DNA from: Romboutsia sp. CE17
Lineage (GTDB): Bacteria > Bacillota > Clostridia > Peptostreptococcales > Peptostreptococcaceae
Assembly (NCBI RefSeq): GCF_012317385.1
Contig: NZ_CP051144.1
Location: forward strand, 1,860,001-1,924,000
Direction of reading: 5' to 3'
DNA: 64,000 nt
A model generated the notes under the pieces. That model was not told where the DNA came from, did no database searches, and worked only from the letters and a program-made list of their open reading frames with translations. This document shows, piece after piece, positions 21,871-52,693 of the stretch. The translations under genes and the position numbers were made by a program. Within the stretch, counting starts at the first letter, position 1, and the number at the start of each line of letters is the position of its first letter.

Positions 21871-22163
21871 TTACTTAATTATTTTTTTATTATATACGCC
21901 TTCAAGACCAACTTCTTTTACTCTATTTCTAATAGCATCTACATCTGTAGTGTAAAAACCTATTTCTTTCATTCTATTGAAATATAAACTTCCTGCAAAG
22001 GTAAATCTTTTTTTATCTCCATCTTCTTTATGCATTTCTGTATTAGAGTAAGCTATAAAGTCTCCAATTAATAAATTAGTTGGAAGTTGTAGTAAATACA
22101 TTCCATCACAGTATCTAGCTGCATTGTGACCAGCTAAGCTTCCTGTACATATAGCTTCTGCAT
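21871..22163 (-). pseudogene. C-terminal fragment of a FAD-dependent oxidoreductase, cut off by element insertion
   Basis: The frame reads AEAICTGSLAGHNAARYCDG and continues to EGVYNKKIIK, the C-terminal part of a FAD-dependent oxidoreductase. Upstream it meets a TAG inside the element, so it has no start of its own; an internal ATG at 22101 is the first available. The missing N-terminal part is at 53665-52669. Joined at the GCAT core the two halves read ..FYVGHTDA-EAICTGSLAG.. in one frame of 429 codons plus stop. As it stands this fragment should not be expressed as a working enzyme. Confidence 0.9.
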
Positions 22164-28906: not shown

Positions 28907-28918
28907 TACTTATCCCCT

Positions 28919-31900
28919 TTACAATAAATCTAGAGATAATACAACCTCTGCATTATACTCTGCCTTATTTTCTTCTATTTTTAAATTTTTAATATATGAA
29001 TCAGGTACTAAATCCCATATTGTATTTAATATTTCTATAGGATCTGTAATTCCCTTGATTGTAGTTACAATTTCTTTTCCTATCTTAATAGGTATAGATC
29101 CATCTTCAAATAAATCCATTAACTTATGAATCTTTACAATTTCATGTTCTATAAACTTAGGATATGAATTCAATGCCTTAAGAGTCTTCATTATAGTCTT
29201 ATCATGACTCTTACCTTCTTTTCTAGTTGGTGATATATCTATACTTTCTTCTTGTAAAACTCTTATTAACTCCTGTTTATTTAATTCTAAATTATCATAG
29301 TACCTACTACTAATATTATGATGTTTATCTTCTTTATCAGATTCCATAAGCTTCATAGCATCTAAAAATGTAATTTCTCTAGATATACTATTATCACATA
29401 TTAAGAATCGCTTCATATACCCTTTTCTAAAGAATGTAAGTGTTCCATCATTATCTAAATACTTAGCACTTCTTATTTTTTTAGGATAATTTTTTATCTT
29501 CACAAATAATTCTTCATCCGAGTCTCTTAAGTCTCTTATTATTTGTAGATACTTAAGTGTACTATCTTCTTCAAAATCTTCTTCTTCTAAACTCTCTTTA
29601 CTGTTTAACTTTTCATATAAATTTTTTCCAAATATACCATAAGTATCAACTTCTTCATTTTCACTAAGATATTTAAAGTCTTCTCCTAGAGTATCATGGA
29701 ATGCTTGTATCTTTGATGTTATATTATCTTCTAATGACATATGCTCTGAAACTTGTGCACTTGGGAAAAAGTTAAATACATATATATCATCAAACTCTGT
29801 ACCAACACGATTTATTCTTCCTACTCTTTGCATTATTCTAGTTGGATTCCATGGTAAATCATAGTTTACAATTATGTTAGCTCTATGTAAACTTATACCT
29901 TCTGCTAATACATCTGTAGTTACTAATATTCTAAAATCATTCTTTTGTTCTTTCTTTGGTACATCTGGATTGAAGTTATTTTGTATAATCTCTCTATCCC
30001 TATTTTTTGATCCACCTGTAAATAATATAGTTTGATTCTTAAAATGCTTGTCTATGTTTTCTTTTAGATACTCTGCAGTTTCTTTTGACTCTGTAAATAT
30101 AAGTATCTTTGCTTTTTTAAGTAGCTTATTATTTTTTAAGTCAGACATAAACTTGTCTAACTTCGGATCACTATATACAGGTTCCCACATACGTCTTATC
30201 ATTTTTAAATTTGATAAATCAAATCTTAAGTCTTCTATAAATAATTCGCTAAACTCTTCTGATTTAAATTTAAATGCATCTGCTCTATCTACTATAATAT
30301 CTAGTTTTTCTTCTTCTCCATTGTTCATTAAATCATAAATATTATATTTTTTACTTATATATATAGTTCCAGATTCGTACATTTCTATAAAGTTTTCATA
30401 TGATTCAATAAATCTATCTAGAGTTTTATTAAATGCATAGAAACTACTCTCTAATCTTTTTAGTAATATTCCCTTCATAAATCCACCCATGTTTTGTTGT
30501 CCTACTAATAAAGACTTATACTTAGATGGAACTTGCTTTAAATAAGTTAATGATTTATATCTAGCGTAAGAAAGTATTTTTATTATATCTAAAGTTTTAT
30601 TAAATGCCACCTCAACTTGATTATCAAATTCATATACTATTTTTTCTGGTGTATTTAAGTTAGGGAATGTTAATCCCTGAGCTTCTAAATCCTTTTGGTA
30701 ATACTTCATTATTTCATTTCTAGTTCTTCTTATCATTATATGATTTAGTACTTTTTCCCTTATCTCTGTAGATACTTCTTTAGAGACTTCTGCATACTCT
30801 GGTGTACCTTTATCATATTTCTTAAGCTTCTTTTCTAATTTTTTAAAAAATCCTTCTAAATCCTTTTGATTAGGTATTATATTAGAGTTTTTTCTATTCT
30901 GGAATAAGTATATTTGATTAGCTATATCACTAATATAGTTATTTTGTGGTGTAGCTGATATTAATACTACTTTTTTACCGTTACATATTTCATGTAACTT
31001 AGCATATGTATCATTATCTTCATTTCTAAACCTATGTGCTTCATCTATAAATATATATTCGTATAAATCTAAATCCATTTTTAATATAGAGTCTAACTTT
31101 CCTAATGATTCAACTTTTGCTGCTACATCAAAATGTATTAATACATTATCCCAATTCTCTTTAAGTACTGGTGGACATATAATAAGTTTTCTACCTCTTA
31201 ATCTTTTTGCTAACATCGCACATATATATGTTTTTCCAAGACCAACTACATCCGATATAAATACACCATTATATGTTGCTAATATTTTTTCTGCTCTTGT
31301 TACTGCATGTAATTGGTATTGTAGTTTCATAAATCCTGGTGGTAATCCTAGTGTTTTAGCATCTACCTTATCTTCATTTATTTCTTCTTTGAAGTACTCA
31401 TATAAACATTTTAAAAACAATTCATATGGAGTTATATCTTCTCTTATCCAACTACTTTCTGCTTGTTCTATATATTCAGTTGTGACATCTACAGATTCTT
31501 TCCATAGCTCTTCAAATTTATCTAATGCAAATCTAACATCTCTAGAATCTTTTAACTCTACATTGAATTCTAATTGATTTATTAGACCTGATTGAGAGAA
31601 GTTACTTGATCCTGTTATGACCTTTCCAAAATCCTCTGATTTTTCTTGGTCCTTTCTCATTATATATACTTTTGCATGTATTGGATGATGTGGGTATACT
31701 CTTATTTCTAACTTTCCAGTTTTAACAAACTCTATGAATTTTTTTATACCTATTTCTACATCCTTACTATCTTCTGATGATTCTATTTCGTCACTAACTT
31801 CCTTAGAGTATTGTTCTTTAGCTTCTTTGTTAGATGTAAACTCCATTTGCATTTCATTTTGTGCAGTTTGTATTAGTTCTACAGATTTTTTATCTAAATT

Positions 31901-32095
31901 AAGTCCTACTAATATTCTAGTTTTTTCTACTTTGTCCATAGATTCATACATTTTATAAAATCCACTACTTCTAAAATATCCTACTAATACATCAAAAAAC
32001 TGTACATTATTGTTTAAAATTTTATTAAATCTATCATAAAGTGTATTGTTTTCTTCATTTGTAAAAAATGTTAAATCATTATAATTTTTACTCAC
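28919..32095 (-). CDS. PLD-nuclease/SNF2-type helicase fusion, defence protein
   Basis: 1058 residues. An N-terminal phospholipase-D-like nuclease with the HKD-type motif HAKVYIMRKD at about 140 and GSSNFSQSG at about 162. Then a superfamily-2 helicase: DVVGLGKTY (Walker A, about 282), FIDEAHRF (DEAH, about 350), LISATPQNN, VTTDVLAEGISLHRANIIVN and RIMQRVGRINRVG (motif VI). Such proteins translocate on DNA and, with a methyltransferase partner, restrict foreign DNA. First gene of the unit. DISARM-class and type ISP systems share parts of this layout, but no drmA or drmB gene is present. Confidence 0.88.
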   Translation of the reverse strand: MSKNYNDLTFFTNEENNTLYDRFNKILNNNVQFFDVLVGYFRSSGFYKMYESMDKVEKTRILVGLNLDKKSVELIQTAQNEMQMEFTSNKEAKEQYSKEVSDEIESSEDSKDVEIGIKKFIEFVKTGKLEIRVYPHHPIHAKVYIMRKDQEKSEDFGKVITGSSNFSQSGLINQLEFNVELKDSRDVRFALDKFEELWKESVDVTTEYIEQAESSWIREDITPYELFLKCLYEYFKEEINEDKVDAKTLGLPPGFMKLQYQLHAVTRAEKILATYNGVFISDVVGLGKTYICAMLAKRLRGRKLIICPPVLKENWDNVLIHFDVAAKVESLGKLDSILKMDLDLYEYIFIDEAHRFRNEDNDTYAKLHEICNGKKVVLISATPQNNYISDIANQIYLFQNRKNSNIIPNQKDLEGFFKKLEKKLKKYDKGTPEYAEVSKEVSTEIREKVLNHIMIRRTRNEIMKYYQKDLEAQGLTFPNLNTPEKIVYEFDNQVEVAFNKTLDIIKILSYARYKSLTYLKQVPSKYKSLLVGQQNMGGFMKGILLKRLESSFYAFNKTLDRFIESYENFIEMYESGTIYISKKYNIYDLMNNGEEEKLDIIVDRADAFKFKSEEFSELFIEDLRFDLSNLKMIRRMWEPVYSDPKLDKFMSDLKNNKLLKKAKILIFTESKETAEYLKENIDKHFKNQTILFTGGSKNRDREIIQNNFNPDVPKKEQKNDFRILVTTDVLAEGISLHRANIIVNYDLPWNPTRIMQRVGRINRVGTEFDDIYVFNFFPSAQVSEHMSLEDNITSKIQAFHDTLGEDFKYLSENEEVDTYGIFGKNLYEKLNSKESLEEEDFEEDSTLKYLQIIRDLRDSDEELFVKIKNYPKKIRSAKYLDNDGTLTFFRKGYMKRFLICDNSISREITFLDAMKLMESDKEDKHHNISSRYYDNLELNKQELIRVLQEESIDISPTRKEGKSHDKTIMKTLKALNSYPKFIEHEIVKIHKLMDLFEDGSIPIKIGKEIVTTIKGITDPIEILNTIWDLVPDSYIKNLKIEENKAEYNAEVVLSLDLL

Positions 32096-32289: not shown

Positions 32290-33135
32290 TGTAGATAGTT
32301 GAAGAAGGAGCAAAAACCACTCCTTCCTCAACTATCTTTATTTATATTTTATGGTCAAAAACTATGGGGTCAAGTCTGACCTCACAGATTGCAGCAAAAA
32401 CCGCTGCAAACTGTGATGCCAGACTAAAAAACTTCTACAACCACAACTCAATCTTCAACACTTACATATTTTCAATTCATCTATCTTCTTTTATCCCTTA
32501 TCACTTTTTCTAACACACTATATTACTTATACATTACTATCATTATCTCCACTAATACATCTATATTTAAGTCCATTGGTTATAGAGTTTGGCTATCGCC
32601 ACCGCGCTTTACGCTCCAATCTTTTGAGCACAAACCACTCAAAAGGATTTCCACTACAATCGCTAACTCAAAACCATCTCCTAATACATAATCTCATAAT
32701 TACTCTAAGGTTATACTTTGTAGTTAGATTAGTAGCTAAATGATGACCTATCGGCCGTGCCCCTCTGACTAATCCTCAACACACGAACATGCTCATTGCA
32801 TAACATACTTCGCATACACCATTTACAATCGAGTATGCTACGTATCTTATTTACTCGCTGTGTTCGTAGCTTTTGAGGATAGCCATTCACTGCCCTAAGC
32901 CCAATGCCCTGTGCATTAGCTTTTCTTAGTACATTCGTCCAAATCTACATATTTGACCTCCACGTGTCCTTATAAGTAAGTACTTTTGTTTTTAAAAATT
33001 TATTTTTATAATATATTTTTATTTGAATTTGTTACTAGGTGTCGGTATGATAGTTTATTGGTTGGTATCCCGCATTGGATAAAACCATTGCTCCGCTATC
33101 CAATGCTAGTACATCTATAGCTTTTAAGGGCATAT
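32290..33135 (-). ncRNA. Large structured noncoding RNA, left copy
   Basis: No ORF. It is the reverse-strand counterpart of 36798-37622. Reading on the minus strand: a 5' hairpin CATTGGATA..TATCCAATG (33115-33080), a block around GGCAGTGAATGGCTATCC (near 32895), a long branched block to GGGGCACGGCCGATAGG (near 32750), a TTTTGAGTTAGCGATTG block (near 32665), a variable purine-rich linker, a 20-bp-class hairpin GTCTGGCATCACAG../..CTGTGAGGTCAGAC (32430-32370), and a terminal hairpin (32336-32294). No poly-U follows, so the 3' end is estimated. Confidence 0.8.
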
Positions 33136-33194
33136 TTATCATTTGATACAATGTTAAAAGTAATCGAAGGTAACATTTTAAGTATTTGCTTAAT

Positions 33195-33220
33195 AAAAAA
33201 GTAGGAACATGAGCTCCTAC
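33195..33220 (-). terminator. Terminator of the sigma/DUF4179 operon
   Basis: GTAGGA/TCCTAC stem with an 8-nt loop followed by TTTTTT on the minus strand, about 115 bases past the DUF4179 stop. Confidence 0.75.
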
Positions 33221-33334
33221 CTCTTTAGGTTCATAATATATTAAAATTGTTCACTGAATCTATCCTATAAATTAGAATTTATCTATTTTACTAATTTAGT
33301 TATAGCATCAAATAGTGTTGTAAGTGAAATTAAT

Positions 33335-34411
33335 TTACTTATTAAACTCTATTTTAAAATCTGATAGTATTGGAGCAGACTTTGTTTCTTCATTCCATTT
33401 TCCATAAATTATTATATTTACATACTCAAGATTATCACCTATCTCAACTAAATCATATCTTTGTTTATATCTAATATCCAATACTTCCTTATTTTCAATA
33501 TCCTCGTAATTTTCAAAGTTTCCAGTTGTAGCCCATAGTACATGACCATTATTATCTCTAACTTCTATTGATTCCATAACATCTAATTCTTTGTAATATT
33601 GATTTGGTGCTGTAATATCTATAGAAAGTGACATTGGAGTTAATAAAATTTGATTTAGGGTAAAGTCATTTTTAGTCTGATTTACGTTTATAACTTTAGT
33701 ATCATCTTTGTTAGAACTTATAGGAAAATTAAATGCCCATTTTCCATCTAACATTTTAGAATTGCCATTTTCATCAACGTCATTACTATATAATCCAAAT
33801 TCCATTTCAAAATCTATCGTGTCAGACTTAACTTGGTTTATAACATCAAAGTTATACATAGCACTTCCTTTTAATGTATATTCATCTACATACTTAACTC
33901 GTGGTGTGTCCGCCCCATATCCATTAGGTTTAACTCCATTTATTTTAAACTCTGGATAATATTGATTAAAGTAATAAACCATCTCACCACAATCTTTATC
34001 AATCTCATATTCATGTAACGTATTTGCGTAAATTGTTTCTTTAAAAGGTTCTTCTGTTTTTATAATATAATCTATATATACATTATTACCATCATATATA
34101 GCTTTATCAATTGTTATTGTAAGTCCATTGTATTCAGAAGATGCATTTATATCACTAATGTTATCTTTAAAAGATTCCTTATTCTTTAGTGCATAATTAA
34201 TCTTATCAAATATATCGCCTAAAACTGGTATGTTATACGCTAAGGATGGATTATTAATTCCTAATGTTAGGATAACTCCTAATGATGCCACTGATGCAAT
34301 CATTGTTTTTCTATACTTATTGCTTTTCTTATGTTTTTTGCCCTTATTTATTGCTATTTTAGTTATTTCATTTATATTGTCTGGAATTTTAATATCATTA
34401 AATTTATTCAT
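33335..34411 (-). CDS. DUF4179 membrane protein, probable anti-sigma factor
   Basis: 358 residues: a short cytoplasmic N terminus rich in Lys, one membrane helix (MIASVASLGVILTLGI, about 37-52) and a large outer domain with beta-rich DUF4179/DUF5643-like sequence (GLTITIDKAIYDGNNVYIDY). Genes of this type follow ECF sigma factors and bind them. Its ATG overlaps the stop of the sigma gene (TAATG), showing coupling. The signal sensed is unknown. An envelope-type regulatory pair inside this element is unusual and suggests acquisition from a chromosome. Confidence 0.85.
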   Translation of the reverse strand: MNKFNDIKIPDNINEITKIAINKGKKHKKSNKYRKTMIASVASLGVILTLGINNPSLAYNIPVLGDIFDKINYALKNKESFKDNISDINASSEYNGLTITIDKAIYDGNNVYIDYIIKTEEPFKETIYANTLHEYEIDKDCGEMVYYFNQYYPEFKINGVKPNGYGADTPRVKYVDEYTLKGSAMYNFDVINQVKSDTIDFEMEFGLYSNDVDENGNSKMLDGKWAFNFPISSNKDDTKVINVNQTKNDFTLNQILLTPMSLSIDITAPNQYYKELDVMESIEVRDNNGHVLWATTGNFENYEDIENKEVLDIRYKQRYDLVEIGDNLEYVNIIIYGKWNEETKSAPILSDFKIEFNK

Positions 34412-34980
34412 TATTTTATCTCCTTTAATATATCGTATAATTTTTTCTTGCCTCGTCTTATATAAGACTTTATTGTATTTTCATTACATTCCATAACTTC
34501 TGCAATTTGTAATATTGTTAAATCTTGAAAGTATTGAAGTATTATTGGTGTTTTATATTTTTCATCTAAAGAATCTATAGCATCATACAAATCGATACTT
34601 TCTTCTAGGTCTGAATAAGATATATCTTCTATGTAATCTTCTACCTGAGCATCTTGAAATTTACTATAATGTCTATTTTTTATATTTACATTATTTATAA
34701 GTATTTTTGTTATCCAAGTTTTAAAAAAGTTTGGATTTCTAAGTTTTGAAATATTTATATATGCTTTATATACTGTTTCTTGATAAATATCTAAAGCATC
34801 ATGTTCATTTTTAGTATATAAAAATGCAGTCTTATACAGATATTCTTTGTAGGTATTTATTGCTTCTTCAAACGATTTATCACAACCTCCTATTGCCTTT
34901 TCTACGATTTTATATTCAGTGTATTTCTCTTTCTTCTCATTGAAAAATCGTATGTTTTTAATTGCTATTTTTTCAATCAT
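34411..34980 (-). CDS. ECF-type RNA polymerase sigma factor
   Basis: About 189 residues from MIEKIAIKNIRF at 34980, supported by AAAGGAGGATAAA; the frame stays open to 35043 but has no ribosome site there. Region 2 reads YLYKTAFLYTKNEHDALDIY..TVYKAY and region 4 reads YFQDLTILQIAEVMECNENT, ending in IKSYIRRGKKKL. It directs RNA polymerase to a small regulon, held in check by the coupled DUF4179 protein. A terminator-like hairpin lies in its leader. Confidence 0.9.
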   Translation of the reverse strand: MIEKIAIKNIRFFNEKKEKYTEYKIVEKAIGGCDKSFEEAINTYKEYLYKTAFLYTKNEHDALDIYQETVYKAYINISKLRNPNFFKTWITKILINNVNIKNRHYSKFQDAQVEDYIEDISYSDLEESIDLYDAIDSLDEKYKTPIILQYFQDLTILQIAEVMECNENTIKSYIRRGKKKLYDILKEIK

Positions 34981-35049
34981 TTTATCCTCCTTTGTAATCA
35001 TGACTACATATATTAGATTCATTAAGCTTATATAAAGTTGCATAAATTC

Positions 35050-35076
35050 AAAAAAAGTTTGAACAAATGTCCAAAC
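35050..35076 (-). terminator. Hairpin with U7 in the sigma gene leader
   Basis: GTTTGGACA/TGTTCAAAC (one wobble) is followed by seven T on the minus strand, 70 bases before the sigma start. It either stops read-through from upstream genes or acts as an attenuator. Confidence 0.6.
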
Positions 35077-35147
35077 CTTTTAGATTTAGCTATATACATA
35101 AATATATTTAATCTTTTATAATTAACTTATTTATCTAGTTGAATCTA

Positions 35148-35187
35148 GAGATAAGTTCGCAATATATAACAATTGCGAACTTATCTC
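35148..35187. repeat. Perfect 16-bp inverted repeat with 8-nt loop
   Basis: GAGATAAGTTCGCAAT and ATTGCGAACTTATCTC face each other. There is no U-run on either strand, so it is not a standard terminator. It may be a binding site or a small mobile-element end. Confidence 0.7.
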
Positions 35188-35199
35188 TATTATAGCATT

Positions 35200-35228
35200 A
35201 AAAAAGCCCCCTTTAATTAGGAGCTTTA
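35200..35228 (-). terminator. Terminator overlapping the stop of the 115-residue gene
   Basis: AAAGCTCC pairs with GGGGGCTTT and runs into TTTTTT on the minus strand; the TAA stop is in the loop. Confidence 0.8.
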
Positions 35229-35560
35229 ATTGTTTTATCTACCATTTTATAAATATCATCCCACGAATGAGTCCTCTTATAAAACTTTATATGTTCAATA
35301 CTTTTTAAATTATGTAATAACTGTTTTGTATAATCATTCAATTCAATTTCTAGTAAATACTCATCTCCAATTTTTCTAGGCTTTGCCTTCGTAAATTCAT
35401 ACTCATCTTGATTTGCTAAATATTCATATATAACCGATATCATTTCATCATTTAAATATCCTCTTTTTCTACTTCCTATGTAAATTTTTGAGCAACGGAC
35501 CTGCTTTTCAAGGTCGTTGGCGATATGAGCATCGCGAATTTTATTCTTAGATTTAATCAT
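35213..35560 (-). CDS. Unknown protein downstream of ardA
   Basis: 115 residues, basic at the N terminus (MIKSKNKIRDAHIANDLEKQ), with KIYIGSRKRGYLNDEMISVI and a C-terminal alpha/beta segment. TAGGAGGTAATACA precedes its ATG, 11 bases after the ardA stop, so it is cotranscribed with ardA. No family recognised; perhaps a helper or regulator of the antirestriction gene. Confidence 0.7.
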   Translation of the reverse strand: MIKSKNKIRDAHIANDLEKQVRCSKIYIGSRKRGYLNDEMISVIYEYLANQDEYEFTKAKPRKIGDEYLLEIELNDYTKQLLHNLKSIEHIKFYKRTHSWDDIYKMVDKTIKAPN

Positions 35561-35571
35561 TGTATTACCTC

Positions 35572-36115
35572 CTAGTTATTTGAATAATAATATATTTCAT
35601 TTTCAGGATTCTTCGTTATACTCATTGTCATTTGTAATTTGTTAAAAACTGTGTCATAATCTATGCTATAAGATATCTCCCAAGGCATACTCTCCAGTAG
35701 TTCATTGTAAAATTCATACATATAATTCTGTGCAAACTCATTATTATTACTGGCTTCTATTGTATAAACATTATCTAAATAATTTTTAAGTATATGTGTA
35801 TCTGTATTTTTAAAATCAATTCCATAAGAATATTCAATATGCTCTATCAAATATCTATTTAAATTTAAATCTTCTATTGACTCCCATAATTCATTGACTT
35901 TTATTGGGTCTATACATTCTCCAATTTTAAATGGAAGTTCGTAGTCGTGAAATGTTTCGCCAACACGTTGCTCAAATTGCAAAATCACTTTGACCATTTT
36001 TACTTTGTCTTAAAATAGCTTCTTTTATTTTTTCATTTTCTGTAGGAAGCTCAATCCATTCTCCCTTTAAATATCCACTGTTGTAGCTCTCTAAATCAGC
36101 TATATATATTTGCAT
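35572..36115 (-). pseudogene. ardA: ArdA-like antirestriction gene with a frameshift
   Basis: The first frame begins MQIYIADLESYNSGYLKGEW at 36115 behind TAAGGAGTGAAAAAA, the typical ArdA N terminus. After about 40 codons it runs into a TGA. The second frame, open from 35997, carries the rest: ETFHDYELPFKIGECID, then NELWESIEDL, the core ArdA motif. Removing one A from the A5 run at 35997-36001 joins them into about 180 residues, close to normal ArdA length. ArdA mimics DNA and blocks type I restriction enzymes. The 35997 ATG has no ribosome site of its own. Confidence 0.8.
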
Positions 36116-36358
36116 TTTTTTCACTCCTTAGATGTAATTTTTAACTTTATTTCTATATTTATATTATGTCCTTTACAAGTGAAAAATATACGCCAAACCG
36201 TTGAAAATACTACATTTAAGTATGTTAACAAATTATCATTTTGCCTTCTGATTTAATTTAAATTAAAAAGTATCTTGAATAAATTTATTAAACAGATAAA
36301 TTAGTTCCAATGACTAAAAAAAGCCGTATACGGGAATATTAAAAATGGAGGTGATCTT

Positions 36359-36622
36359 ATGGCAATAGGTAGCTTTGAAGGGTTATATACATTTCTTGAA
36401 GTTGCAAAAATCTATGGAATAGATGATTCATGTTTAAGAAAACAGGTAGCTCGTAATAAATTTGTTATTGGGGAAGATGTAAAAAAGATGGGTAGAACTT
36501 GGATTATAACCGAACAAGCAATGGTTAGAAGTTTTGGAAGCTTAAAATTTGAAGACTATAAAAAGAAGCTCGAGAAAAAAGAAAAGGCTCAGGCTAAAAA
36601 ACTTAAACAATCAAATACTTAA
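36359..36622 (+). CDS. Small helix-turn-helix DNA-binding protein
   Basis: 87 residues: TFLEVAKIYGIDDSCLRKQV is a helix-turn-helix, followed by GRTWIITEQAMVRSFG and a Lys-rich tail. This layout resembles small excisionase-like or helix-turn-helix proteins of mobile elements. GGAGGTGATCTT precedes the ATG. It lies just upstream of the right-hand structured RNA, on the same strand. Confidence 0.75.
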   Translation: MAIGSFEGLYTFLEVAKIYGIDDSCLRKQVARNKFVIGEDVKKMGRTWIITEQAMVRSFGSLKFEDYKKKLEKKEKAQAKKLKQSNT

Positions 36623-36782
36623 ATACATTGATACGAGACTTAGCTATAAAATACATATAATTAATGAATAAACTATTTAAAAAATAAATAAAGTTATAAT
36701 TTAATATATAAATTTATTAAAAATTTAAGGTATTTACAAACAATTCCATTTTAAAAGTTATAAATATATATTTCCATATTAC

Positions 36783-36788
36783 TATAAT
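36783..36788 (+). promoter_or_regulatory. Probable -10 box of the right-hand structured RNA
   Basis: TATAAT lies about ten bases before the point where the two RNA copies start to match (36798). No convincing -35 box was found; the surrounding DNA is very AT-rich. Confidence 0.4.
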
Positions 36789-36797
36789 AAATTCTTC

Positions 36798-37622
36798 TTT
36801 AAAAGCCATCGAATCACTAGCATTGGATAGCGGAGCAACGGTTTTATCCAATGCGGGATACCAACCAACAACCTACTATACCGACACCAAGTAACTACAC
36901 CAAATAAATTAATAGATGCAATAAAACCTCCAAGGACCAATATAGTAAGTTGTACAAAACGTGGAGGTAAATCTCCTAGATTTGGTCTGCTCCATCATAA
37001 AAACTAACGTACAGGGCATTGGGCGACGGGGCAGTGAATGGCTATCCTCAAAAACTACGAACACAGCGAGTAAATAAGATACGCAGCATACTTGATTGCA
37101 AATGATGTATGCGAAGTATGTTATGTAACGAGCGTGTTCGTGCGTTGAGGATTAGTCAGAGGGGCACGGCCGAAAGGTCATCCTTTAACTATCTATCTAA
37201 CTAAAAAAATAATAACCTTAAAATAATCAAGAAACCCTGTGTCAGGAGATGGTTTTGAGTTAGCGATTGCAGTAGAAATCCTTTTGAGCGGTTTTTACTC
37301 AAAAGATTGGAACGAAAAGCGCGGTGGCGACAGCCAAACTCCCAAAGTATCAAAACTATATATAACACCAATACCACTATAAGCCACAAATAAATATAAT
37401 TATATACTCTAAAAAATAAATACATAAAATCTAAAAATAAAATAATTATAATCCATAATATTAAAACCTATGAATGTTCTAAGGCTTTAGTCTGGCATCA
37501 CAGTTTGCAGCGCTCTTTGCTGCAATCTGTGAGGTTAGACTTGACCCAAAAGCTTTTGACCCCAAAATATAAATAAAGATAGTTGATGTATGAGCATTTT
37601 TTGCTCATACTTCAACTATCCA
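36798..37622 (+). ncRNA. Large structured noncoding RNA, right copy
   Basis: It matches the reverse complement of 32290-33135 in the same block order: CATTGGATAGCGGAGCAA (36821), GCAGTGAATGGCTATCC (37031), GAGGGGCACGGCCGAAAGG (37158), GGTTTTGAGTTAGCGATTG (37250), GGCATCACAGTTTGCAGC (37494), terminal hairpin 37578-37620. In the block from about 37029 to 37182 only around ten single-base changes are seen, nearly all transitions, while the linkers between blocks are unrelated. Its terminal hairpin arms differ fully from those of the left copy but pair perfectly. No ORF with a ribosome site fits. Confidence 0.85.
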
Positions 37623-37680
37623 CCTATACTACTGACTAAAAATATTAAACATATAATTAAACTTAAAAGAAAATTACAGG

Positions 37681-37850
37681 GATAGGAGGTGGGGGAGCAG
37701 AGAGCGCGGTGGGTAAAATATGGTCCAAACTGCAACGGAATAAATAGTTAGCACAAAAATAAAGCTACATTTTGTATATCTTAGTTTTTATGTAGTGAAG
37801 GTTTTGACCATATCGGGGCTGACAACCGAAGGTTAACATTCACACAAATA
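37681..37850. other. Unexplained structured intergenic element
   Basis: GC-richer than its surroundings. ATATGGTCCAAAC (37718-37730) and GTTTTGACCATAT (37801-37813) are inverted repeats with one mismatch, followed by GGGGCTGACAACCGAAGGTT, itself a small hairpin (AACCGAAGGTT). There is no ORF. It could be a further RNA, or the end of a lost insertion sequence. Confidence 0.4.
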
Positions 37851-37927
37851 ACTTTTGATTCATAATAAACCTGTGCGAAGCAACCATTCAGAGTACATGA
37901 TCCGTCTAAATATTTTTCAAATTAATA

Positions 37928-38046: not shown

Positions 38047-39774
38047 CTACTTTTTTATTGTATATCTTATTTTTGACCCTGAACCAATTCTTTCAATCTT
38101 ACCATCTTCCACAAGCTTATTAAACAACTTGCTTGACTTAGTCTTTCCAAATCCCAAATTATCCCTGCTTAATGAATTTGTTATAAACCCATTACCTTTA
38201 ATAAAATTAATAATCTTCATCTCATCCAAACTTAAACCTGACTCTATATTTATACTTTGCTCAACATTTTGACTATCAGTGATATTAGTTAACTCAACAT
38301 CATTAAACATATCTCCTAACAAATACTTTGTTCCTTTTCCTACTCCCTGAGACTGTAAATAACCTTTATTAACTAACTGTGCTAAAACCTTATTACTATA
38401 TAAAGAATGATTATCTATTAATTGCTGTAACCTATTATTAGTAACATATCCTTCTTGATGAGCTGTAACCAAAGCCATAATTTCATCTTTATCCAAATTT
38501 TTATATTCTTCATTTAATGTATTTTTTATAAAACTTATACTCTCATTTGGTAGTAAGGATATTGTTCTTAAAGTCAACTCTACTCTATCAGGACCAAAAC
38601 TTTCTTCTAAGTCTGGGATTGTCCATTCTTGCTCTTTCCAAGCTTTTCTTATTGCTTCAATCCCAGAACCAGCTCTTTCTCCAACACCTATTAAGTTAAA
38701 CATTTTAAATATATTCTCATTCCTAGGGTCACTTATTCCTCCACTCATAGCTTCTTCTATCGATATTCTAAGAGAACCTTGGTTCGAGAATTTAAAATAT
38801 GTCTTTCCCCTCTCTATTACTATACCTCTTTCTAACCTATAATCAGCATGTATAATCGCATTAGCTACAGCTTCTCTAATAGCATCATGTACACCTGTAT
38901 TATCCTGTCTTATTCCATTAATCAGTTCAAATGGTAAATTTAGATTATCAGTTATTCTATTTATTATCTTAAAGTAAAAATCATATATATTCCCACTCCA
39001 AGTTCCATCAGATGATGTAATTCTATAATCCCATCTATTTTCTGTAGTTTTTTCTCTATAGTCTAAAAAATACTTTGGAAACTCATCAATAATCTCTCTT
39101 TCTTCTCCAAACATTAATAATCCAGCAGCAGTTATACCTTCTTCTCCCGTTCTTCTATTTTTTCCATATGCTCCTAATTTGTATAAAAAATTCTTTAAAT
39201 CTAATCCTATCCATGGATGAGATGGTTTTAACGCTGCTAACCTATTTTTATAATTATTAATACTATCTATATTTAAATCTTCTATTGTAAATCCTTCAAG
39301 TATTACATTGTCTTGTGAAAAATCACTAGCATCAGCTATCATTCTATCAATTTCTGACTTGCTACATTTATAATCACCTGAATGATTTCTCCTAAACGTT
39401 CCACCATGTTTACTATCACTATATGGATTCTCACCTATATAAATAGGCTTTTGTCTTCTATCCGCTCTCGGTACTATTATTTTAAGTATATCTTTGCCAT
39501 CATAGCTTTCTACTGTAACATTAATATCGCTAATAATATTAGCACTTACTTTTTTACTATTATTTAAGTTATCCCATAAATCTTTTTGTATTTCATCTAT
39601 ATTATTTAAACCTGTTATGTAAAATTCACCTTTATTTTCCTTTATTCCAAGTAAAATAACTCCACCATTGCTATTGGCAAAAGCAGAATATGTTTCCCAC
39701 ATATCTTTAGGCAGCCCACCACTTGCTTCTTTGCATTCAAGCTCTTTATTTTCTGATAGTTTATATATATCCAT
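38047..39774 (-). CDS. Schlafen-type AlbA_2 / ATP-binding protein with C-terminal winged helices
   Basis: 575 residues. The N-terminal AlbA_2 (Schlafen-like) domain shows ELECKEASGGLPKDMWETYS and FANSNGGVILLGIKE. The central HATPase_c_4-like domain has REAVANAIIHADY and FSNQGSLRISIEEAM, then GVGERAGSGIEAIRKAW. The C-terminal third holds two winged-helix units (TNNRLQQLIDNHSLYSNKVL and the last 60 residues). Such proteins occur as regulators and in several defence loci; the role here is unknown. The upstream region has a GGAGGTGGAGT site. Confidence 0.85.
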   Translation of the reverse strand: MDIYKLSENKELECKEASGGLPKDMWETYSAFANSNGGVILLGIKENKGEFYITGLNNIDEIQKDLWDNLNNSKKVSANIISDINVTVESYDGKDILKIIVPRADRRQKPIYIGENPYSDSKHGGTFRRNHSGDYKCSKSEIDRMIADASDFSQDNVILEGFTIEDLNIDSINNYKNRLAALKPSHPWIGLDLKNFLYKLGAYGKNRRTGEEGITAAGLLMFGEEREIIDEFPKYFLDYREKTTENRWDYRITSSDGTWSGNIYDFYFKIINRITDNLNLPFELINGIRQDNTGVHDAIREAVANAIIHADYRLERGIVIERGKTYFKFSNQGSLRISIEEAMSGGISDPRNENIFKMFNLIGVGERAGSGIEAIRKAWKEQEWTIPDLEESFGPDRVELTLRTISLLPNESISFIKNTLNEEYKNLDKDEIMALVTAHQEGYVTNNRLQQLIDNHSLYSNKVLAQLVNKGYLQSQGVGKGTKYLLGDMFNDVELTNITDSQNVEQSINIESGLSLDEMKIINFIKGNGFITNSLSRDNLGFGKTKSSKLFNKLVEDGKIERIGSGSKIRYTIKK

Positions 39775-39858
39775 ACTCCACCTCCATATCTACAAATTCA
39801 TATCTATATTATAATCGGTAGTAAGTTTTATAATCAATAAATATTATTTTAACTTATC

Positions 39859-40113
39859 TTACTTAAAATTCACAATATTTCTAACCTGGACCTCACTAAT
39901 ACCATACTTTCTAGACATTATTTTATAATCACCCTTAAACTCCTCTCTAATTTTCTTATTCCTATACTCCTTAGTAATACTATTCTCATTTGGAATATAC
40001 AAATTACTACCACCAGCCAATCTTACTAAATCCTTAAAAGCATCAATACCAATAGTATCAACAACATCCAAAACACTCTCAGGCAGATCATCTCTAGTCA
40101 AACACTCCAACAT
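39859..40113 (-). CDS. Mor-family transcriptional activator
   Basis: About 84 residues from MLECLTRDDLPESVLDVVDT at 40113, supported by TAGGGAGGGATTTTTT; the frame opens nine codons earlier without a ribosome site. It has the Mor pattern: an N-terminal IGIDAFKDLVRLAGGSNLYIP and a C-terminal HTH (EEFKGDYKIMSRKYGISEVQ, ending VRNIV). Mor proteins activate middle genes of Mu-like phages and also regulate integrative elements. Confidence 0.85.
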   Translation of the reverse strand: MLECLTRDDLPESVLDVVDTIGIDAFKDLVRLAGGSNLYIPNENSITKEYRNKKIREEFKGDYKIMSRKYGISEVQVRNIVNFK

Positions 40114-40195
40114 AAAAAATCCCTCCCTAACAATAAACAACTATATAACCAATTATATACCTATACTTTATAACATATATTATTTATTTCTTATA

Positions 40196-41281: not shown

Positions 41282-41944
41282 ATGAAATGGTACTTAGACT
41301 TTGGACATGGAGGAAAAGACCCTGGAGCACTAGGTCATAACAAAACCAAAGAAAGTGAAACAGTTCTAAAAATAGGACTACTCGTAAAAAATACTCTAGA
41401 ACAAGCTTTTGAAAAAGTAATAACCACAAGAGAAGATGACAAATACTACTCACTAGACTATCGAAGTACAAAAGCAAATAAGAATAACTGTGACTACTTT
41501 GTAAGCCTTCATATGAACTCATCAACTAACAAAACTGCAAAGGGATGTGAAGTATGGGTATATGATAAAAACAGTAAACTATACAACCTAGCTAATAATC
41601 TATCCACTAATATCTCAAATAAAATAAACACACCTAATCGTGGAGTAAAAATATCAAAAGAATTTTCAGTACTTAGAAAAACTAAAATGCCTGCTCTATT
41701 AATAGAAATAGACTTTATATCAAATAGTAGCGTTGAAAATAATCTAAAATCATCTAAATATATAAAAGATGTAGCAGATACAATATCATCTACCCTATTA
41801 TCATTTGTAAACAAATCCATAACTAATGATGGGATTTTTTATAGAGTTTGTATAGGAGCTTTCAATGATAAAAACAACGCCATCAAACTAAAAGATAAAG
41901 CTATATCTAAAGGATTCAAAGACTCATATATAACTACAAAATAA
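41282..41944 (+). CDS. N-acetylmuramoyl-L-alanine amidase with SPOR-like tail
   Basis: 220 residues. Amidase_3 domain with zinc ligands in DFGHGGKDPGALG (His), KESETVL (Glu) and SLHMNSS (His), and catalytic Glu in LLIEIDFISN. The last 35 residues (FYRVCIGAFNDKNNAIKLKD) look like the start of a SPOR peptidoglycan-binding repeat. There is no signal peptide, as in phage endolysins. GGAGGTAACATA precedes the ATG. It heads the short plus-strand cluster with the DUF1659/DUF2922/YvrJ genes. Confidence 0.9.
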   Translation: MKWYLDFGHGGKDPGALGHNKTKESETVLKIGLLVKNTLEQAFEKVITTREDDKYYSLDYRSTKANKNNCDYFVSLHMNSSTNKTAKGCEVWVYDKNSKLYNLANNLSTNISNKINTPNRGVKISKEFSVLRKTKMPALLIEIDFISNSSVENNLKSSKYIKDVADTISSTLLSFVNKSITNDGIFYRVCIGAFNDKNNAIKLKDKAISKGFKDSYITTK

Positions 41945-42077: not shown

Positions 42078-42293
42078 ATGGCTGTTGTAGAATTTCAAAA
42101 TCCATCAAGTTTGAAAATTGTATTAGACTTAGGTTTAGTAGATGGAAAAGCAAAAACAAGAAGTAAATCTTTTGCTAATTTAAAATATGATGCAGCACTT
42201 CAGGATGTATATGATGTTGGAGTAGCTTTGATGGGGCTTCAAAAACATGATGTAATAGACATAATAAAAGTAGACAACACAACACTTAGCTAA
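42078..42293 (+). CDS. DUF1659 protein
   Basis: 71 residues, MAVVEFQNPSSLKIVLDLGL, with the DUF1659 pattern RSKSFANLKYDAALQDVYDV. TAAGGAGGTATATCTT precedes it. Genes of this family nearly always pair with DUF2922, as here. Molecular function unknown. Confidence 0.85.
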   Translation: MAVVEFQNPSSLKIVLDLGLVDGKAKTRSKSFANLKYDAALQDVYDVGVALMGLQKHDVIDIIKVDNTTLS

Positions 42294-42332
42294 TAGTCTA
42301 TTATTTTAAATTTAAGAAAGGAGGAATTTTAA

Positions 42333-42563
42333 ATGGAAACTACTAAAAGTCTAGTAATGACTTTTTTAGATGAAGGCGATTCAAAAGTATCATTAACTGT
42401 ACAAGACCCTAGAGATAATATAACTGAAGCTGAAATAAAATCTGCTATGGAATTAGTTATATCTAAGAATATCTTTGATCCAAATGGATTAGACCTAGTA
42501 TCAGCAGTAGATGCAAAAATAGTTGTTAAAGAAACGACTCCTTATGACTTAGTTATAGGGTAA
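42333..42563 (+). CDS. DUF2922 protein
   Basis: 76 residues beginning METTKSLVMTFLDEGDSKVS, with KVSLTVQDPRDNITEAEIKS and AMELVISKNIF; partner of the DUF1659 gene 39 bases upstream. AAGAAAGGAGGAATTTTAA is a strong ribosome site. Function unknown. Confidence 0.85.
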   Translation: METTKSLVMTFLDEGDSKVSLTVQDPRDNITEAEIKSAMELVISKNIFDPNGLDLVSAVDAKIVVKETTPYDLVIG

Positions 42564-42581
42564 TAAAGTTAATAAACTTAT

Positions 42582-42622
42582 AAAGACTATGCTTTAACTC
42601 CCCCTTTTTAGCATAGTCTTTT
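42582..42622 (+). terminator. Terminator after DUF2922
   Basis: AAAGACTATGCT pairs with AGCATAGTCTTTT, 16-nt loop rich in C and T. It lies between DUF2922 and the YvrJ gene, so the latter may be made at a lower level. Confidence 0.85.
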
Positions 42623-42651
42623 ATATATATTTATATGGAAAGGTTGTGTTT

Positions 42652-42801
42652 ATGATGAATTCAGAAATTCAAACTCTGATAGCTTCTGTTGGTTTTCCTA
42701 TAGCCCTTAGTATGTATTTACTTGTTAGAATTGAAGGTAAGCTTCAGGCTCTATCTGATAGTATTAATGAATTATCTAAAAATATAATAAGTATGAAGTA
42801 A
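42652..42801 (+). CDS. YvrJ-family small membrane protein
   Basis: 49 residues, MMNSEIQTLIASVGFPIALS, with one membrane helix and a helical tail (IEGKLQALSDSINELSKNII). YvrJ proteins look like small holin-like helices and commonly follow DUF1659-DUF2922 pairs. Ribosome site GGAAAGGTTGTG. The stop codon lies inside the next terminator stem. Holin activity next to the amidase is a tempting inference only. Confidence 0.8.
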   Translation: MMNSEIQTLIASVGFPIALSMYLLVRIEGKLQALSDSINELSKNIISMK

Positions 42802-51049: not shown

Positions 51050-52693
51050 ATGAAAGTAGCGATATACTCTAGAAAATCAAAATTTACAGGCAAAGGTGAG
51101 TCTGTAGAAAATCAAGTTCAACTATGTAAAGACTATGCCAAGACATTAGGCGTAACAGAATTTTTAATATATGAAGATGAAGGTTTTTCTGGTAAAAATA
51201 CAAATAGACCAGAATTTATAAAGATGTTAGAAGATGCAAAATCAAAAAAGTTCGATACAATAATCTGCTATAGACTAGACAGAATAAGCCGTAACGTATC
51301 AGACTTCTCTAGCTTAATAGATGACTTATCTTCACTAGGAATAGGCTTCATATCAATAAAAGAACAATTTGACACAACAACACCAATGGGAAGAGCTATG
51401 ATGTTCATTTCAAGTGTATTTGCACAACTTGAAAGAGAAACAATCTCTGAACGTGTTAGAGATAACATGAGAGAACTCGCTAAAGATGGGAAATGGCTTG
51501 GAGGCCAATTACCATTAGGATATGATACTGAAATAATAAAATACGTATCTGATGGAAAAGAACGTAAATACAACATTCTAAAAGTAAATGAAGAAGAAAT
51601 ACCACTAGTTAATGATATCTACAACAAATTCTTAGAAGTAGGATCATTAACAAAAGTAAGTGAATATTTATATAAAAATAAAATAACAGGAAAAAACGGT
51701 GGAACAATAACACCATCAATGGTAAAAGAAATACTAACAAACCCAATATACGTAAAATCAAGCAAACTAACGCACCACTACTTTGAAATAAACAACATCC
51801 TAACAACAGGAGAAGCAAATGGATGTGGCTACTTAACATACGGTAAAAACAGAAACGGCAAAAAAGTAGATAAAAACAACTGGATATATGCGGTATCAAA
51901 ACACTTAGGAATAATAGAAGATACAACATGGCTAGAAATCCAAAAGGTTGTAGATAAGCAAAGTAAAAAAGGATGTAGAACAGGGTCAAGTAAAAATGGT
52001 TTATTATCAGGAATATTAAAATGTGCAAAATGTGGTAGCGCAATGGTTTTAACATACTCTTCTTATGGAAAAGGTGAAAATAAAAGAAAATCATACTACT
52101 ACAAATGCAATAAGAAATACACAATGTATAAATGCTCAAACTCTAATATAACTGGAAAGGAAATTGAGGACTTTGTACTTAATAAAATAAAATTAACAGA
52201 TAAAGAAGTTTTAATAAGTGAATATGAGAAGATGAAAAATAACTTCAAAGCAATAAAACCAAAGGATAGCACATTAATACAAGAAGAAATAAAAAATAAA
52301 GAAAAAGCTATAAATCAGCTAGTCCTAAAGTTAAGCGAAGTAAATGAAGCTAGTGCAAAGTATGTAATTGCTCAAATTGATAAGCTTGGTTTGGAAATTG
52401 AAGAGTTAAAGAGTAAGCTTGATGATGTGAATGAGTTTGATAATGATATCGAGTTGGAGATGCTTAATATTGATTTGGTTGTTGATAATTTAAATAAGTT
52501 CAATAAGTTGATTGATAGTGCTAGTATTGATGAGAAGAAGATGCTTATTAACTCTATAGTTGATAAGATTACTTGGGATGGGGATTCTGGTGAGATAAGA
52601 ATATTTTATAAGGGACTTTCATGGACGCAGTCTGGCCTGAATAATTTGTGTTTAGATACGGAGCGCATCTGTGTGACCAACATAAAAACCTGA
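51050..52693 (+). CDS. Large serine recombinase (element integrase)
   Basis: 547 residues. Resolvase domain with catalytic Ser7 in AIYSRKS and the Arg-rich DRISRNVSDF; a recombinase domain from about 150 (LGGQLPLGYDTEI); a zinc ribbon (CAKCGSAM..CN..CSN) at about 325-365; a coiled coil at about 405-475. The last eight codons lie outside the element, past the GCAT core, so they come from the host oxidoreductase gene. In the circular form the frame would continue into the HTH gene at 22162. Confidence 0.95.
   Translation: MKVAIYSRKSKFTGKGESVENQVQLCKDYAKTLGVTEFLIYEDEGFSGKNTNRPEFIKMLEDAKSKKFDTIICYRLDRISRNVSDFSSLIDDLSSLGIGFISIKEQFDTTTPMGRAMMFISSVFAQLERETISERVRDNMRELAKDGKWLGGQLPLGYDTEIIKYVSDGKERKYNILKVNEEEIPLVNDIYNKFLEVGSLTKVSEYLYKNKITGKNGGTITPSMVKEILTNPIYVKSSKLTHHYFEINNILTTGEANGCGYLTYGKNRNGKKVDKNNWIYAVSKHLGIIEDTTWLEIQKVVDKQSKKGCRTGSSKNGLLSGILKCAKCGSAMVLTYSSYGKGENKRKSYYYKCNKKYTMYKCSNSNITGKEIEDFVLNKIKLTDKEVLISEYEKMKNNFKAIKPKDSTLIQEEIKNKEKAINQLVLKLSEVNEASAKYVIAQIDKLGLEIEELKSKLDDVNEFDNDIELEMLNIDLVVDNLNKFNKLIDSASIDEKKMLINSIVDKITWDGDSGEIRIFYKGLSWTQSGLNNLCLDTERICVTNIKT

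Follow-up and report, generated by a model that had tools for sequence, protein, structure and literature searches.

To our knowledge, few classes of large structured RNA are known, and most of them are without a function. Among the closest described systems are GOLLD and ROOL, two large RNAs that phages and prophages encode and whose linkers lie unresolved in the interior of nanocages. GOLLD becomes more abundant during lysis by phage, and tRNAs can be accommodated in its linker; a third large RNA, OLE, binds the membrane protein OapA (PMC12286853). The nanocages are RNA-only, with 14 units for GOLLD and eight for ROOL. Whether nanocages are a common outcome for large natural RNAs is a question left open in PMC12286853, and an independent RNA class would be a direct test of it. 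OLE is described from Gram-positive extremophiles and anaerobes, and the motif Flavo-1 (RF01705) is listed by Rfam from Bacteroidetes.

The window analysed here, a stretch of 64 kb, carries two paralogs (RNA-A and RNA-B) of a large structured noncoding RNA that appears not to have been described as a class. It is as long as GOLLD and, among the genomes sampled, occurs in one bacterial family only.

Results

The original prediction had placed two divergent copies of a structured RNA in the window in inverted orientation, and both the places and the orientation were borne out by blastn, which aligned the copies over 845 columns at 77% identity (E about 1e-170). The two RNAs and their parts are as follows.

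36795..37624, plus strand: RNA-A, large structured noncoding RNA of about 830 nt (homologous with RNA-B and with the remaining copies in an alignment of 25; MFE z-score)
32290..33135, minus strand: RNA-B, second copy, about 846 nt (homology; MFE z-score)
36820..36854, plus strand: RNA-A 5' hairpin with a near-invariant GGATAGCGGAGCAA strand (19-copy alignment, alifold)
33072..33106, minus strand: RNA-B 5' hairpin (19-copy alignment)
37013..37180, plus strand: RNA-A central domain (model R1), a long interrupted hairpin with side elements (175.8 bits; member of the R1 training set)
32744..32910, minus strand: RNA-B central domain (R1, 164.5 bits; also in the training set)
37251..37353, plus strand: RNA-A Flavo-1 three-way-junction domain (Rfam match 37254-37330, RF01705, 56.2 bits; consensus fold)
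32573..32675, minus strand: RNA-B Flavo-1 domain (Rfam match 32672-32596, RF01705, 57.7 bits)
37487..37543, plus strand: RNA-A hairpin I (GTCTGGCATCACAG...; covariation)
32371..32427, minus strand: RNA-B hairpin I (covariation; R2 match 32290-32428)
37578..37620, plus strand: RNA-A terminal hairpin (covariation)
32293..32337, minus strand: RNA-B terminal hairpin, terminator-like (20-pair stem, T-rich tail; covariation)
37287..37299, 37509-37521 and 37593-37605, plus strand: apical module AGYGNTYTTTGCT in RNA-A
32309-32321, 32393-32405 and 32627-32639, minus strand: apical module in RNA-B

Comparison across copies puts the full-length unit at about 0.83-0.98 kb. Three fast-evolving A+T-rich linkers join its four structured domains, which are conserved: the 5' hairpin, the central domain, the Flavo-1 three-way junction and, as the last, hairpin I together with the terminal hairpin. 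Whole domains are missing from some copies. Between RNA-A and RNA-B the conserved blocks are 87% (5' hairpin), 92% (central block), 88% (Flavo-1 domain) and 87% (3' domain) identical. The 'about ten changes', almost all transitions, that had been reported for the near-identical block correspond to 13 mismatches in 168 nt of the central block, 11 of them transitions. To call the linkers unrelated was an overstatement, because they are still 71%, 74% and 64% identical with gaps, and thus diverged instead. The apical motif, with at most one mismatch, occurs seven times in the window against 1.05 expected, and six of these matches form the apices of hairpins, three per RNA.

Both RNAs fold far more stably than shuffled versions of themselves (MFE z of -9.67 for RNA-A and -9.12 for RNA-B, 20 shuffles each). 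The central domain comprises 48 pairs with 97.5% of cells paired in a 19-copy alignment; both sides have changed in 17 of these pairs, compared to 8.0 +/- 1.5 after shuffling, and none of 500 shuffles was as high, while the count of pair types was not extreme (31/500 shuffles). In the 3' domain (20 copies), both sides have changed in 15 of 34 pairs, compared to 5.2 +/- 1.3, again with 0/500 shuffles as high. The larger alignment thus yielded covariation above background in both domains, and the two hairpins for which compensation had been proposed do covary across 20 copies. Covariation was small in the Flavo-1 domain (3 pairs; 56/500 shuffles reach as high), where many columns are invariant, also in IMG/VR copies, leaving little variation to test. 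For a helix that would close the RNA by pairing its 5' end with the region before the terminal hairpin, 368 of 5000 permutations were as stable, which is not significant, and inspection of a GGGGCA/TGACCCC long-range pair revealed no compensation.

G-U pairs are near-invariant at two central positions (18/19 and 19/19 copies) and at one 3' position (18/19 scored cells), and R1 scores reach only 27-39 bits on the reverse strand versus 105-197 on the forward strand; these observations point to RNA, and to this strand, as what is conserved. Of the six frames, the best one stays open in 1/19 central, 6/21 Flavo-1 and 4/20 3' rows, and the lengths of these three blocks take all residues modulo 3; they show neither a conserved frame nor a codon-like pattern of substitution, in keeping with the predicted lack of a plausible ORF. 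Conserved structure, compensatory changes and the absence of a reading frame are the features of a large structured noncoding RNA in general, and on homology, fold z-scores, covariation and lack of a conserved frame the proposal of two divergent copies stands.

We then compared the RNAs with described classes. The proposed likeness to GOLLD and ROOL in size and setting stands, and Rfam scans bore out that neither is matched. The GOLLD model (RF02032, cut-off 150) scored at best 11 bits in the whole genome, elsewhere than at this locus, and the scans of all 4227 Rfam families (E up to 5 and 10), which we take to include the ROOL model, gave no ROOL match. Rfam gave no match to OLE either, nor to group I or II introns, HEARO or other ribozymes at gathering or at E up to 5 or 10. 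Akin to GOLLD, the RNA exceeds 800 nt, is noncoding, combines several structured domains with a variable linker, sits on mobile elements and can carry cargo in a linker (tRNAs in the case of GOLLD, and in some of the copies described here a small reading frame). Unlike GOLLD, it is found on plasmids and integrated elements rather than in phage records, and has a Flavo-1 domain; the phage or prophage and tRNA-island setting of GOLLD was not found (0 tRNAs in 64 kb, no phage match). With ROOL it has in common that both are large ornate noncoding RNAs of mobile elements with a variable linker, whereas copies here are often paired and, we presume, longer than ROOL. OLE resembles it in being a class of large, structured RNA from bacteria.

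Of the Rfam matches only Flavo-1 was credible, a 76-nt domain whose scores in both window copies exceed the gathering cut-off of 42; the RNA is possibly new as a whole, as had been suggested, but one of its domains is bona fide Flavo-1, here an internal domain of a 0.83-kb RNA. The Rfam consensus is 84.5-89.7% identical over about 58 nt in five Paraclostridium plasmids. All 23 Flavo-1 matches in 71 genomes of the family, 21 of them above the cut-off, fall within copies of the large RNA as delimited by BLAST (in one case, G052:C50, a partial copy), and the stand-alone motif listed for Bacteroidetes was not encountered in these genomes. In samples of the class and phylum, Flavo-1 occurred in the window's own genome only (1/291 and 1/299). 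A looser pattern retrieved five IMG/VR contigs, three with true Flavo-1 and, in the stretches examined, no central domain R1; by eye, the surrounding three-way junction of the RNA here also looks common to three IMG/VR copies. The orphan Flavo-1 motif gains a defined structural context in the large RNA.

Of 297 genomes from the order, 11 carry the RNA, and every one of these belongs to the window's own family (Peptostreptococcaceae, judged from named relatives). In these 11 genomes R1 found 22 forward-strand copies above 100 bits, 17 of which were in its training set; the other five scored 104.7-162.1 bits. It sits on plasmids of Paraclostridium, on contigs close to these in size and on phage-like elements that have integrated. 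Two oppositely oriented copies per element are frequent, and two complete plasmids have a single copy. The whole RNA had no match in 50,697 phage records, nor in three scans of IMG/VR with patterns from the RNA. The phage-like location first proposed needs amending: the wider setting is a plasmid family together with integrated phage-like elements, not ordinary phages. The neighbouring features are as follows.

33335..34411, minus strand: DUF4179 protein (PF13786, 1e-18), presumably with an anti-sigma role
34411..35043, minus strand: sigma-70 family factor between the RNAs (Pfam Sigma70_r2/r4), which we take to be of ECF type
36359..36622, plus strand: HTH_59 / excisionase-like gene between the RNAs (PF20038, 2.9e-8; phrog_2655, 5e-16)
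37670..37870, plus strand: another conserved noncoding element, apparently structured, that closely follows RNA-A (plasmid matches; consensus fold of 7)
39859..40140, minus strand: Mor-family late transcription activator (PF08765, 8.4e-13; phrog_836, 9.4e-18)
41282..41944, plus strand: endolysin (Amidase_3; PF01520, 2.9e-46; phrog_435, 7.3e-47)
42078..42801, plus strand: DUF1659, DUF2922 and YvrJ-like (holin family) genes (DUF matches; phrog_4898 holin, 2e-8)
51050..52693, plus strand: large serine integrase at the element's right end (PF00239/PF07508; phrog_95)

The segment between the RNAs does hold the predicted sigma factor and ardA, but ardA appears split: an N-terminal piece (35972-36124) matches ArdA at 1.1e-9 (1.2e-22 for the intact G058 homologue), and neither Pfam nor NCBIfam gave a match for the piece that follows (35572-35997). 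No capsid or terminase gene was found among the examined genes of the phage-like element. On 20 mapped RNA-bearing contigs (leaving out two with only the 3' module), Mor is present on 16, of which 10 have it within 5 kb of an RNA; the corresponding counts are 15 and 12 for YvrJ and 11 and 9 for the endolysin. As a mark of specificity this lysis setting is weak, because DUF2922 genes occur in 66 of 71 genomes. The 37670..37870 element is 81.9-87.5% identical over 42-73% of the query in four Paraclostridium plasmids, and is found on six mapped contigs besides the window, three of them among those plasmids.

As to the transcript ends, a -10-like box upstream was borderline (permutation P 0.05; 12/21 copies usable), the promoter scan gave no excess (41 vs 41.0), and the terminator scan did not flag the RNA-A terminal hairpin. 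An extra terminator follows 3/23 copies versus 1/23 shuffled. For RNA-A, for both copies of G056C78 and for G054C2, the next mapped gene downstream lies on the opposite strand; downstream of RNA-B comes a restriction operon. Modules like the terminal hairpin recur alone elsewhere; by eye, one comes directly after the stop codon of an endolysin gene in G049 and another after that of a DUF4179-like gene in G051.

Discussion

Structure rests here on comparison, and from the sequence we infer expression, assembly and role. The explanation we favour, and give an even chance, is a new class of large ornate RNA serving as a self-folding, perhaps multimeric scaffold of a late programme, probably GOLLD/ROOL-like. 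Each unit would be its own transcript, starting near the conserved TTAAAAGC and ending at the terminal hairpin; opposite-strand downstream genes, the terminator-like RNA-B hairpin and the lone 3' modules argue for such independence. The RNA may be made in the element's late or lytic programme, since a Mor-type activator, endolysin and holin-like genes are often nearby, and these genes make a GOLLD-like rise in lysis plausible. Without help from a protein it would fold into a compact scaffold, in which the repeated hairpin tips might hold units together as a homo- or hetero-oligomer and the variable linkers would serve as loose or cargo loops, as in GOLLD and ROOL. Speaking against this explanation are the borderline -10-like box and the promoter scan without excess, the unflagged RNA-A terminal hairpin with no extra terminator behind it, the closing helix and long-range pair that found no support, the small covariation in Flavo-1 and unremarkable count of pair types in the central domain, the copies with missing domains, and a lysis setting of weak specificity.

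Clearly less likely, yet to be taken seriously, is a trans-acting regulatory or sponge RNA whose U-rich tips and Flavo-1 domain would bind one protein of host or plasmid, or a target RNA, titrating or tethering it with no cage. Like apical modules on three hairpins of both RNAs, the many invariant Flavo-1 columns common to IMG/VR copies, as a conserved partner would impose, and two copies on several elements are consistent with this, whereas 48 central pairs exceed a sponge's need, and no gene family is on every mapped contig (the widest on 18/22). A cis-acting leader, that is a 5' UTR regulating the gene downstream (F5, or the DUF1659-DUF2922-YvrJ operon), we consider improbable: the same-strand gene within 500 nt downstream is F5 on 9/20 contigs and DUF1659 on 5/20, and most copies are without a separate terminator further downstream, but the opposite-strand genes and restriction operon noted above, downstream genes more variable than the RNA, and an RNA-B hairpin that is itself terminator-like all point away from it. 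Less probable still is a replication, resolution or packaging site folding as single-stranded DNA. Such a site would suit strongly hairpinned, plasmid-borne, inverted pairs on plasmids that also carry replication-protein-like and recombinase genes; the conserved G-U pairs, however, are C-A mismatches on the other strand, model scores are one-stranded, two complete plasmids have one copy only, and elements integrated in the chromosome retain the RNA as well.

That linker III is a slot for a hydrophobic peptide, with the structured domains stabilising or controlling its mRNA, seems very unlikely, since most copies, both window ones included, are without such a frame, and it is frameshifted in pHD6. 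Related hydrophobic frames do occur in linker III of G058C4 (40 aa), G058C3 (54 aa) and pHD5 (36 aa), with a related open stretch and putative start in G026C160; the two G058 copies have a Shine-Dalgarno-like AAAGGAG and a TTG start, all 3 matches with E < 0.05 in 71 genomes fall in linker III, and the codon-position changes (5, 3, 6; 3 silent and 7 non-silent codons) are not decisive. Size and mobile-element setting would also fit a ribozyme, an intron or the guide RNA of a mobile nuclease, a reading that the Rfam negatives, and the lack of a matching mobile-nuclease gene among the backbone families looked at, leave with hardly any probability.

Within the favoured scaffold reading, an unlikely extension is that the paralogs of one element co-assemble in the lytic or late phase by way of the tips they have in common. 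The product would be a hetero-oligomeric particle of RNA only, a third design next to the GOLLD and ROOL cages; the fast-evolving linkers would be cargo slots, in some lineages for the gene of a small hydrophobic peptide, and Flavo-1 a portable joint, in Bacteroidetes too. The carrier plasmids are small, complete and sequenced, three of them in one strain (HD0315_2), and deletion, curing and in vitro folding are therefore practical.

A large structured RNA present twice in the window

In the window (bases 1860001-1924000 of a 3.1-Mb genome in a single contig), the two RNA segments were present as the original prediction had described them:

36795-37624, plus strand: RNA-A
32290-33135, minus strand: RNA-B

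In a blastn search of the whole genome, RNA-A matched RNA-B (33127-32291, minus) with 77% identity (E 4e-170), and no further credible match was found in the genome, the third being 30 bases in an A+T-rich stretch. Identity between the copies was 87% in the 5' hairpin, 92% in the central domain (13 mismatches, 11 of them transitions), 88% in the Flavo-1 domain and 87% in the 3' domain, and 64-74% in the linkers. Both copies fold far more stably than their dinucleotide shuffles (z of -9.67 for RNA-A and -9.12 for RNA-B; 20 shuffles each, none equally stable).

An alignment of 25 RNA copies, whole or partial, drawn from plasmid records and 71 family genomes, resolved four conserved domains with variable A+T-rich linkers in between. 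The covariation that had been read from two copies stood above background in this larger set: pairs changed on both sides numbered 17 of 48 in the central domain (8.0 ± 1.5 in shuffles) and 15 of 34 in the 3' domain (5.2 ± 1.3), values reached by 0/500 shuffles in each case, although these shuffles ignore relatedness. The count of pair types in the central domain was not extreme (31/500 shuffles), and the Flavo-1 domain, with so little variation, had only three two-sided changes (56/500 shuffles as high). Paired cells made up 97.5% of 902 in the central domain, 97.3% of 679 in the 3' domain and 99.5% of 440 in the Flavo-1 domain, counts that are favoured by the structures having been predicted from the very alignments counted; in a sliding control, which preserves relatedness, they fell to 25-50%. 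A long-range closing helix (368/5000 permutations as stable, 23 copies) is not claimed, and neither is a GGGGCA/TGACCCC pairing, judged by inspection only with a pattern that caught the wrong site in several rows.

The claim that the segments are noncoding was borne out in the central, Flavo-1 and 3' blocks, where the number of rows with an open frame never exceeds 6 (of 21) for any of the six frames and block lengths include all residues modulo 3. Protein coding was rejected, as frames break in most rows of these three blocks; some copies have a 29-codon frame in their central domain, which was not found in RNA-A or RNA-B. R1, a covariance model of the central domain (19 copies, 171 positions), scored 27-39 bits on the reverse strand versus 105-197 on the forward strand. 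These weak reverse-strand scores and the conserved G-U pairs indicate an RNA, and one of this strand. That the segments are a conserved structured noncoding RNA is close to certain.

A proposed new class containing a Flavo-1 module

The sole credible Rfam match was Flavo-1, at 57.7 and 56.2 bits (cut-off 42), and it covers one domain of the RNA only. Neither the GOLLD nor the ROOL model matched, and introns, ribozymes and known large RNAs were rejected for want of an Rfam match. The suspicion that the RNA belongs to neither GOLLD nor ROOL and may be new thus held, and we call it a new class within a known kind, the 'large ornate RNA'. No prior description was found in the open-licence literature searched (PMC); a 2017 survey reportedly described ROOL.

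Flavo-1 is listed for Bacteroidetes in Weinberg et al. 2010 (PMC2864571), and a Flavobacterium transcriptome study reports matches in either sense, with no role assignable (PMC9723704). Flavo-1 gave 23 matches in the 71 family genomes, spread over exactly those 11 genomes in which R1 found the RNA. Each match falls within a copy of the large RNA as defined by BLAST, the copy at G052:C50 being partial. Of 291 class-level and 299 phylum-level genomes, the window's alone had Flavo-1. In the present setting Flavo-1 is thus one structural module within a far larger RNA. In the five plasmids of Paraclostridium bifermentans the domain shares 84.5-89.7% identity with the Rfam consensus along some 58 nt. 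Three IMG/VR contigs whose host is unknown also have Flavo-1; by eye they appear to share its flanking stem and small hairpin, and no central domain was seen within the stretches examined. Two of five IMG/VR pattern matches turned out not to be Flavo-1.

Distribution and paired copies

R1 found 22 forward-strand copies above 100 bits. They come from 11 of the 297 order-level genomes searched, each belonging to the window's own family; the training set accounts for 17 of these copies, and blastn had already found the other five. Across 391 genomes of the class its matches were confined to the window's genome and one family member. Blastn gave no match in 50,697 phage records and five among plasmids, every one from P. 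bifermentans and overlapping no gene in the (incomplete) gene table. Three IMG/VR scans with patterns taken from this RNA gave no match, and an exact-pattern scan of GTDB contigs gave nine stretches titled Romboutsia, Peptostreptococcaceae and, for one MAG, Clostridium. These titles, together with the plasmid records, are the basis for taking the family as Peptostreptococcaceae. Some copies are domain-deficient, lacking the central domain (L050, minus copy), the central and Flavo-1 domains (L051, plus copy) or the 5' domain (L052, plus copy); these are decay or modular variants.

On nine mapped contigs (the window, pHD5, pDSM4, pHD6, G054C16, G056C78, G056C6, G026C160 and G055C5) there are two copies for which over 500 nt are matched or spanned. 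Their orientation is opposite in 9/9, although the contigs include close relatives and are thus not nine independent cases, and both G055C5 copies lack domains. Of the five complete plasmids, pS7 and pHD4 have a single copy and the other three have two. In P. bifermentans DSM 14991 the 19.8-kb plasmid carries a pair, of which one member has no clear 3' domain. In a FastTree phylogeny of 27 copies, from which three incomplete or unclear ones were dropped, copies beside the DUF1659-DUF2922-YvrJ genes and copies beside the short protein F5 formed separate clades in Paraclostridium (support 1.0 and 0.995) and in genus g19 (1.0 and 0.991), while RNA-A and RNA-B were sisters (1.0). This pattern reflects either repeated duplication or conversion, and a two-copy state appears to have been retained or re-established more than once.

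Ends of the unit

Upstream homology among distant copies ends just before TTAAAAGC, and in some copies the break comes soon after an unrelated terminator-looking hairpin (by eye). A -10-like box about 11-13 nt upstream of TTAAAAGC was borderline (P 0.05) in the 12 of 21 copies that were usable, nine being dropped because the anchor was not found; a consensus promoter scan showed no excess (41 vs 41.0). A terminator scan flagged RNA-B's terminal hairpin and not that of RNA-A. A separate downstream terminator was rejected (3/23 copies vs 1/23 in mononucleotide shuffles).

Stand-alone copies of the 3' module exist as well (L145, L146, L147, L149, L150). Two such copies directly follow a stop codon (by eye), one that of an endolysin gene (G049) and the other that of a DUF4179-like gene (G051), and a search of eight 3'-module-only loci with filters off gave no credible central domain (best 13.4 bits). 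This suggests a transferable 3'-end module, akin to a reusable transcript end, which would fit a discrete transcript.

Genomic setting

The five plasmids are non-mobilizable and 19.4-32.0 kb in size, three of them from one strain, HD0315_2. They and similar-sized contigs variously share a serine recombinase, a replication-protein-like gene, a Mor-family activator, DUF1659-DUF2922-YvrJ, an amidase/endolysin and F5. PHROGs annotates the window's amidase as endolysin, the YvrJ-like gene as holin, Mor as late activator and the HTH_59 gene as excisionase. The window's element, roughly 30 kb, additionally encodes RecT, YqaJ, DnaB_2, an antirepressor and, at its right end, a large serine integrase; no capsid or terminase was found among the genes examined. 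It apparently splits a FAD-oxidoreductase gene that has a full-length homologue in G003, and the contig G054C2 carries a like C-terminal fragment. Defence-like cargo lies beside the RNAs.

21871-22101: C-terminal piece of the FAD-oxidoreductase
52652-53665: N-terminal piece of the FAD-oxidoreductase
25505-32095 and 38047-41149: type IIG-like restriction-methyltransferase with SNF2/PLD helicase; Schlafen-AlbA protein; EVE-HNH protein

Mor is present on 16 of 20 RNA-bearing contigs, YvrJ on 15 and endolysin on 11; contigs where the gene and an RNA are less than 5 kb apart number 10, 12 and 9, respectively. The plasmid pHD4, partly covered in this count, elsewhere shows endolysin, the DUF trio and a further Mor gene. 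Because DUF2922 is found in 66/71 genomes, we take the lysis genes as setting and set them aside as proof of function.

Possible function

GOLLD and ROOL are described as RNA-only cages with a variable linker inside, and GOLLD, whose linker can hold tRNAs, as increasing during phage lysis (PMC12286853, sections 7-9). Akin to them, the present RNA is long, noncoding, multi-domain and heavily structured, has variable linkers and resides in a mobile element with lysis genes. Given this anatomy, the reading we think most likely, at about even chances, is that it would fold by itself and act as a scaffold or particle during the late programme of the element; the scaffold or multimer role, taken by itself, is put forward tentatively. 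The main rival is an RNA that binds protein multivalently or acts as a sponge. A like module, AGYGNTYTTTGCT, ends three hairpins in each RNA (Flavo-1 apical, hairpin I and terminal) and is present in most of 20 alignment rows (by eye); with at most one mismatch it occurs at seven places in the window (1.05 expected), six of which are exactly the six tips. One tip repeated on three arms would suit multivalent binding, either to protein or to other copies. A cis-leader as general function was rejected.

Neighbouring and inserted elements

At 37670-37870 lies another conserved noncoding element, some 200-250 nt long (GGTGGGGGAGCAGAGAGCGCGGTGGG...). It also occurs in pHD4, pHD5, pDSM4, pHD6, G026C160, G049C4 and G051C103, has a consensus multibranch fold, adjoins the DUF-side RNA in several elements and had no phage match. 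Linker III of some copies (L041, L042, and the minus copies of L033 and L049) holds a small hydrophobic reading frame, frameshifted in pHD6, whose sole matches with E < 0.05 in 71 genomes fall there. Near the split-ardA junction (35956-35973) lies a mini-repeat around GAGCAACGNGTTGGCGA, apparently about 25-30 bp; its pattern has 38 exact matches, spread over 10 of the 71 family genomes, and 0 control matches. It also occurs within loops of some RNA copies and resembles palindromic elements known to invade genes and RNAs.
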